Assembly (NCBI GenBank): GCA_024281115.1
Contig: JAMXLI010000154.1
Coordinates: 1 to 35,274 of the forward strand
DNA length: 35,274 nt
From: Terriglobales bacterium
GTDB lineage: Bacteria; Acidobacteriota; Terriglobia; Terriglobales; Acidobacteriaceae
Direction of reading: 5' to 3'
Made by a program: the position numbers and the translations under genes. Below the pieces are notes generated by a model. The model made no database searches. It saw only the letters and a list, made by a program, of their open reading frames with translations, and had not been told where the DNA came from. Of this stretch, positions 34,005 through 35,274 are shown piece by piece (positions within the stretch are counted from its first letter, which is position 1; each line of letters starts with the position of its first letter).

Positions 34005-34574
34005 TTAACTCCAGAACGTGCGGTCCAGCGTGCGGTATTGGATGGCCTCGGCGATGTGCTTGCTTTGCACGGCGCCGCCACCTTCCAGGTCGGCAATGGT
34101 GCGCGCCACCTTCAGGATGCGGTCATGCGCCCGCGCGGTCAGGCCCTGCTGGGTCATGGCGCGCTCCAGCAGGCGCTCGCAGTCGGCTGATAACTCGCAG
34201 TGCGCGCGGATCTGCGGCGAGCTCATCTGCGCGTTACAGTAAATGCGGGCGCTGGAGGAGCCAAAGCGGCCAAGCTGGATCTCCCGTGCCCGCATCACGC
34301 GGTCGCGGATTTCCGTCGAGCCCTCCGGTCCCGACGCGCTGCGCAGTTCCTTGTAGTTCACCGCGGGAACATCCATGTGAATGTCAATGCGGTCCAGCAG
34401 CGGCCCGGAGATCTTGGAAATGTACCGCTGGATCATAGGGGGGGTGCAGTGGCATTCACGCGTGCGGTCGTTGAAGTAGCCGCAGGGACAGGGATTCATT
34501 GCCGCTGCCAGCATGAAGCGTGACGGGAAGGTTAACGACATGGCAGCTCGCGAGATGCAAACGGTGCCGTCTTC
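34005..34574 (-). pseudogene. comM: yifB/comM AAA+ ATPase, 3' fragment interrupted by an element
   Basis: About 190 codons of the C-terminal end of a Mg-chelatase-like AAA+ protein (YifB/ComM) are recognised. They run from [17 protein letters not shown] through [36 protein letters not shown] and [15 protein letters not shown], to [13 protein letters not shown]. The cysteine set of CPCG and CHC is intact. In complete family members the segment before EDG reads like VLRQPL; here the upstream codons encode unrelated residues (FYRDAR). Homology therefore stops at about 34574. The N-terminal S5-like and Walker A/B parts are missing and should lie beyond the integrated element. ComM is a helicase that helps branch migration in natural transformation; the fragment alone cannot bind ATP. 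No frameshift is visible within it. Confidence 0.85.
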
Positions 34575-35274
34575 GCGTGCGTCCCGATAAAACAATCAAG
34601 CGGAATGCTCATCCCATCGATCACATAATTTGCTGCTTTGATCTGCGGTTCCAGCGCTCCTAGCAGGCGCCGCTTGTCCTCGCGGTTCAGGAATTTCCAG
34701 CGCATGAACGGAGCGAACGCCCTCGCCAGGCCGACAGGATCAAGGCTCGCGCTTGGCGCTTCGGCCGCTAGTTGGTCCATTGCCTGTCTAAGCTCGCGGT
34801 CAATCTGCGCTAATCGGAATGCGCGATCATCACGGCTCAGCTCGCCATCAATAAACAGGTCCATGATGCGCTGGCGCTGCCCTTTCAGCTTGGCAATCTG
34901 ATCGCGAAGCCGCGCAATCCGGGCCTCGGCGCCGTGGCGCTCAGCCTTCGCCATCTGATAATCGAATATCCGACGCAAAAACGCTCGCTCAGTCAGTCGC
35001 TCAGCGAAAATCTCATCCAGCATCGGCTCCAATCGGTCGCGGTTCATGAAGCTGGAATATTGGCAAAGCGCCTCTCCCGCCTCGTTGTGGCGTTTCTTGT
35101 TGGAGCAAATGTAATAGTAGCGATCAAAGTTGTTGCGGTAAGTGTGCAGGCGATCAGCACATTTCGAGCACCACAAGAAGCCGTTGTAGGTGAACAGGCC
35201 GACTTTCCGCCGCTCTTTGATGTGGTGCTGCGCCTTCCGCTGAATAATCTCCTGTACTCGGGCGAAATCAGCCG
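34532..35274 (-). CDS. large serine recombinase, C-terminal part (partial at window edge)
   Basis: The frame is open to the window end with no stop, giving ~247 codons. N-terminal of the part seen is the end of the Recombinase domain ([20 protein letters not shown], then [13 protein letters not shown]). Next is the zinc beta-ribbon ([11 protein letters not shown] and [20 protein letters not shown]). After that is a long coiled-coil region ([20 protein letters not shown]) and a C-terminal helix-rich domain typical of phage/ICE integrases of the phiC31/TP901-1 class. The catalytic serine domain lies outside the window. The stop (34532-34534) is inside yifB-homologous sequence, so the last ~13 residues ([13 protein letters not shown]) come from target DNA read in a different frame. 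It is likely the integrase of the element. Confidence 0.9.
34565..34584. other. presumed attachment-site junction (attL/attR half)
   Basis: The yifB homology stops within a few bases of 34574, where the minus strand reads ACGCACGCGAAGACGG. Serine integrases cross over at a central dinucleotide of a short core; the precise dinucleotide needs the other element end or an empty site. Position certain to about ten bases only. Confidence 0.5.
34575..35274. mobile_element. left end of an integrated element carrying a large serine recombinase
   Basis: This is DNA from the breakpoint of yifB homology to the window end. It contains only recombinase sequence so far. Its base composition looks less GC-rich than the flanking genes, for example around 35090-35160. 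The rest of the element and the 5' part of yifB must lie to the right. Confidence 0.8.

Follow-up and report, generated by a model that had tools for sequence, protein, structure and literature searches.

The locus raises the question of whether the right end of this contig carries one junction of a mobile element integrated into comM (yifB), and whether excision of such an element would rebuild the gene and act as a switch on DNA uptake. The window, i.e., the whole stretch of DNA that was analyzed, consisted of the entire contig C154 (35,274 bp) of a draft genome with 349 contigs, 98.9% completeness, and 5% contamination, and it ended inside a mobile element at position 35274. The right end very probably represents the attL of an integrated element, either a temperate phage or a genomic island, which was inserted by a large serine recombinase (LSR) with its attB in comM. 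On the minus strand, the 3′ part of the LSR gene was followed by the 3′ part of comM, and the following features could be assigned, with the partner junction residing on contig C234.

34005..34574, minus strand: 3′ part of comM (yifB), from the sensor-1/NPCPCGY region to the C-terminal domain, with the frame intact to the stop (Pfam, tblastn, and junction comparison)
34568..34574, minus strand: 7-bp core GAAGACG (attL core), common to both ends, with crossover predicted at the dinucleotide GA, 34573-34574 (the core recurs at the comM 5′ junction of C234)
34584..34596, minus strand: attP inverted-repeat arm ATTGTTTTATCGG, with the partner arm CCGATAAAGCAAT on C234 (12/13 match centred on the core)
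34532..35272, minus strand: 3′ part of the LSR gene, comprising zinc ribbon, coiled-coil, and C-terminal tail, with the final codons out of frame within comM DNA; open at the contig end
34575..35274, no strand assigned: visible portion of the mobile element at the end of C154 (GC 0.56 against 0.64 for the contig)

The two halves of comM and their junctions

The first-pass annotation had described YifB homology that stopped abruptly, with a serine-integrase gene taking over, and this could be confirmed. Minus-strand homology to ComM occupied 34008 to about 34580, starting inside ...QPLED/GTV, where the match ends and the 3′ part of the LSR lies directly beyond. The placement of the junction before EDGTV needs correction, as the core at 34568-34574 puts the E and D codons in sequence common to both ends. 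The comM part in the window corresponded to residues 324-517 of the 517 in intact ComM with 74% identity (tblastn), and Pfam gave strong matches to Mg_chelatase_C and to positions 127-206 of the 207 in Mg_chelatase.

The 5′ half of comM, on whose presence the annotation had made its reading depend, was found on contig C234 of the same genome by a search with the ComM N-terminal domain. On C234, comM breaks after ...EVMRQPLED and enters foreign DNA with a stop three codons on, and the 5′ and 3′ parts are broken at the same codon. A whole-genome search revealed a single 5′ half and a single 3′ half of comM, whereas no intact gene was found. The gene order on C234 (dnaJ-rsmE-uvrD-thiolase-comM) was the one seen beside intact comM in relatives; the 3′-side genes dapB and lysC did not lie beside comM in the ten relatives compared, which counts against the insertion reading. 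The GC of the host part of C234 (0.644) was close to that of the window (0.636), and the element parts were lower. While the element is integrated, a 331-aa ComM fragment is left, in which Walker A (223) and Walker B (304) are kept and the sensor 1/NPCPCGY motif and the C-terminal domain are lost. Lacking these parts, and with its 3′ half detached, ComM would be expected to be inactive as long as the element stays in place.

The junction on C234 (CAGCCCCTG-GAAGACG-CCTGCCGATAAAG) and that of the window (CGGGACGCACGC-GAAGACG-GCACCGTTTGC) were complementary, matching to the base. When the outer flanks were joined in silico, an attB (...CAGCCCCTGGAAGACGGCACCG...) was obtained and the comM reading frame was exactly restored without a break. 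Joining of the inner flanks produced a reconstructed attP (...ATCGGGACGCACGCGAAGACGCCTGCCGATAAAG...) with the arms ATTGTTTTATCGG and ATTGCTTTATCGG, one arm per contig. The arms formed a 12/13 inverted repeat around a 20-bp spacer centred on GA, the first bases of the core. By the contiguous-arm score, a repeat of equal quality appeared in 19 of 20,000 trials in which the right flank was randomised, with the random right flanks drawn from the same two contigs, C154 and C234; this score replaced an earlier all-pairs symmetry score over 28 positions, which was weak (137/2000). A core common to attL and attR and an attP inverted repeat about it are the marks of LSR elements, and the LSR gene adjoined the att site, its 3′ end overlapping attL. 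Two junctions, a shared core, an attP inverted repeat, and an in-frame attB were thus all found, and they support the earlier prediction that excision would restore comM.

A mechanism can be proposed on the basis of established serine-integrase knowledge and the anatomy of this locus. Serine integrases catalyze integration between attP and attB, and excision requires a directionality factor. The LSR would have recombined the attP of the element with an attB located in comM, in its conserved Walker-B/sensor-1 region, and the element would now lie between C154 and C234. Integration would have split comM into the 331-aa fragment and the detached 3′ half, and the LSR together with a directionality factor would excise the element and rebuild comM exactly.

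Related recombinases and insertion sites in comM

A related LSR was present in four other genomes among 150 related genomes, and it adjoined a comM half in all four (G023, G089, G140, and G149). The same arrangement could be observed in a fifth close relative, G155, found in a family-wide search. An alignment-based scan of 84,980 named genomes revealed nine loci with a related LSR, every one of which abutted a comM half; the two sets overlap, as three of the nine are apparently the same records as G023, G089, and G149. The relatives in named records were nearly all Acidobacteriota (Terriglobia, Angelobacter, and Acidiferrales), which makes it most likely that the source genome belongs to this phylum as well. 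When the window LSR alone was used as query, no relatives were retrieved from genome records, IMG/VR, or phage or plasmid collections; they were found by the alignment query. A more distant LSR was located in G297, a genome with intact comM. Judging from these sequences, this LSR clade is devoted to comM. Three insertion sites in comM were distributed within about 35 codons:

EDG/TV: source genome and G140; L153 lies close to this site
CPCG/Y: G023, G089, G149, and G155; in G014 and G072, comM 3′ halves likewise carry a matching element end
NPC/P: G111 (L054:6931-7629), only a few codons from the window site, with an LSR not closely related to that of the window and convergent with comM

Both orientations of the element relative to comM occurred at CPCG/Y. 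The ends of the G089 element at this site formed an inverted repeat (GGCAACGAAGATACCCGCA / GGCAACGAGAGTACCCGCA), and its two core copies differed by one base (CCG vs CCC), which would be expected from recombination between two sites and not from target duplication. The empty-site comparison that had been suggested earlier could be made for a relative, G089, with its near-sister G222, in which one comM copy reads uninterrupted through the site where that of G089 is broken, the 5′ half of this copy being 99.4% identical to that of G089 at the amino acid level. Three full comM matches (L112, L115, and L118) were contained in the G222 bin, probably due to contamination by sister species.

Several further loci were recorded in the related genomes. 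In G140, the two comM halves are embedded in long contigs (L048, C20:65192; L015, C8:278562-280332) with element sides of at least 24 kb and 278 kb, so that the island must be very large or, alternatively, the chromosome has been rearranged between att sites. On contig C16 of G155 (L108), the interrupted comM 3′ half was frameshifted in its last 15 codons, through decay or sequence error. Contig C264 of G083 (L053:1-583) begins about 20 bp before the comM EDG site, and no 5′ half was found in that bin; this may be another insertion at the EDG site.

The recombinase, the element, and the fate of comM

The visible LSR frame consisted of 246 codons with no stops or frameshifts and ran off the contig end. 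Its zinc ribbon scored 24.1 bits (E 4.6e-5), just below the Pfam cut-off of 25.3 bits, and the LSR part in the window was 30-38% identical to complete LSRs of 500-530 aa having all three LSR domains. Full-length relatives contained the Resolvase, Recombinase, and Zn_ribbon_recom domains, and a full-length relative matched the A118 and TP901-1 integrases (PDB), with A118 among the best solved-structure matches. The contig stops at 35274, short of the catalytic N-terminal part. The LSR tail at 34532-34567, like that at L015:10097-10148 in G140, is read from out-of-frame comM DNA when integrated, and on excision it is predicted from sequence to change from 16 residues to THAKTPADKAMAERFYLPIAACL.

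The visible 0.7-0.8 kb at each element end contained only the LSR and a small serine resolvase. The latter, at the C234 end, is a complete small serine recombinase (225 aa) followed by another gene, and its relatives, up to 74-82% identical, occurred in viral contigs without comM or a close relative of the window LSR. A recombinase-only minimal element had been considered upon an N-terminal resolvase match on C234, and was rejected when the match proved to be this complete, separate protein. A direct join of C154 to C234 was rejected as well, since their ends share no overlap and the bin has no contig that extends one of them or bridges the two. The LSR catalytic domain and the element interior were absent from the assembly, which counts against one continuous element.

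A larger portion could be seen in G023, whose element is at least 44 kb long (18 kb on C74 and 26 kb on C81) if both contig arms are all element. It encodes a GmrSD-type protein, a ZorB-like motor protein, and a tubulin-like protein, a content that suggests a defence-carrying island. At the element end in comM on C81 (L090:10210-15847 and L046:844-7447), genes for tubulin-like, long coiled-coil, ZorB-like MotB/OmpA, and GmrSD-type proteins stand in a row, possibly a Zorya-related defence cluster with a tubulin-like part. Some members of the clade are apparently phages, because LSRs of the clade occur, away from comM, on two IMG/VR phage contigs that also have genes for endolysin and replication. 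In the viral contig L155 (6295-6345), an inverted repeat (18/21) was present at the 3′ end of a clade LSR as an apparent intact attP.

The LSR of the window is presumed to be active and the element able to excise. A degenerate, immobile remnant, in which either the LSR or the opposite end no longer works and comM is lost for good, is the most serious alternative and keeps a low probability, as the catalytic domain and the middle of the element are unseen and both contigs end within the element. However, a frame open over 246 LSR codons, two matching att halves, and a nearly perfect attP repeat argue against decay.

The annotation had gone further and suggested a switch on DNA uptake, which is not supported: no excised form or regulated excision could be seen in these data, relatives seem to have acquired their insertions recently and independently, and the role of ComM lies in recombination once DNA has been taken up rather than in uptake itself. 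In Gram-negative bacteria, ComM is the helicase canonically responsible for branch migration during transformation (PMC11612176), and Acinetobacter lacking it still transforms, though at a lower level (PMC11472951). ComEC and DprA were present in the source genome, so that parts for uptake remain. Since ComM works on DNA already taken up, its loss would make divergent DNA recombine less, while uptake would not be blocked. A reversible switch, in which the element excises conditionally, comM is restored, and the element is retained, as with the Listeria prophage in comK or with skin in sigK, is improbable. The exact restoration of the frame in silico and the presence of ComEC and DprA would suit it, as would the open frames of both comM halves and their low dN/dS against relatives (0.02-0.05 for both halves between G023 and G089, both interrupted). 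However, comM is intact in three of the five species of genus g24 and in G222, the near-sister of the interrupted G089; with insertions that are probably recent and independent, unspoilt halves are expected without any switch, and the 3′ half of G155 is frameshifted near its end. The silent-site divergence of the G023 and G089 LSRs was about that of neighbouring genes. A long-lived insertion under selection, considered on account of this divergence and the low dN/dS, was set aside, as the intact G222 (dS 0.38 to G089) points to recent independent insertions; for the same reason, dN/dS says nothing on a switch. Slightly less probable again is the broader proposal that a soil-bacterial clade of phages or islands homes in comM and toggles it by excision, whereby the element would control the recombination of incoming DNA and the comM-read LSR tail could mark the integrated state.

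A Tn7-like (AbaR/Tn6022-type) transposon with the 7-bp core as target duplication is very unlikely: comM is the classic AbaR island target (PMC11472951) and a short direct repeat flanks the insertion, but the junction holds an LSR gene, attP has palindromic symmetry about the core, the core copies of the sister element in G089 differ, and no tni/tns transposase genes occur in the visible sequence at the two ends. An assembly chimera or contaminant at 34574, a possibility raised by the annotation itself, has hardly any probability despite the fragmented and partly contaminated assembly, because the halves restore the frame exactly, the C234 junction is complementary to the base with the other attP arm beside it, the genome has one comM only, the gene order is as in relatives, and many independent genomes show this LSR-comM joint too.

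Comparison with known systems

An LSR-mediated insertion at an attB in comM, the preferred reading, belongs to a kind already known and frequent in this gene family, to which the present case adds a further example. It represents a clean case from Acidobacteriota in which comM is a repeated integrase landing site for related and unrelated LSRs at several sites within about 35 codons, and it supplies predicted attP/attB pairs for LSRs beyond the groups that have been studied in depth. By itself it reveals no new mechanism, and it agrees with the view that mobile elements benefit when the host can no longer recombine them out.

Listeria phage A118 is inserted in the competence gene comK, and its regulated excision is established. 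Its integrase is an LSR of the same broad family (PMC3556126), whereas the target gene differs, being comK there and comM here. In Acinetobacter, comM is likewise interrupted by mobile elements, namely AbaR/AbGRI and other islands, some of which carry defence systems (CBASS and Zorya) and the removal of which raises transformability (PMC11472951, PMC7508600); the AbaR insertions arise by Tn7-like transposition, while an LSR would have acted here. The serine recombinase prophage of Wolbachia phage WO (sr1WO) splits the same magnesium chelatase gene with portions of the gene flanking the element (PMC9203015), but the host phylum differs and the present element is known from its ends alone. Another parallel is given by the LSR elements of Durrant et al. 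2022 (PMC10083194), which show site-specific LSR integration in the same gene family: 12.4% of the predicted site-specific LSRs target magnesium chelatase/ATP-dependent protease (comM/yifB) genes, and competence genes are enriched as targets. In comparison, the present recombinases form a clade from Acidobacteriota that uses at least two attB sites within comM and inserts in two orientations.
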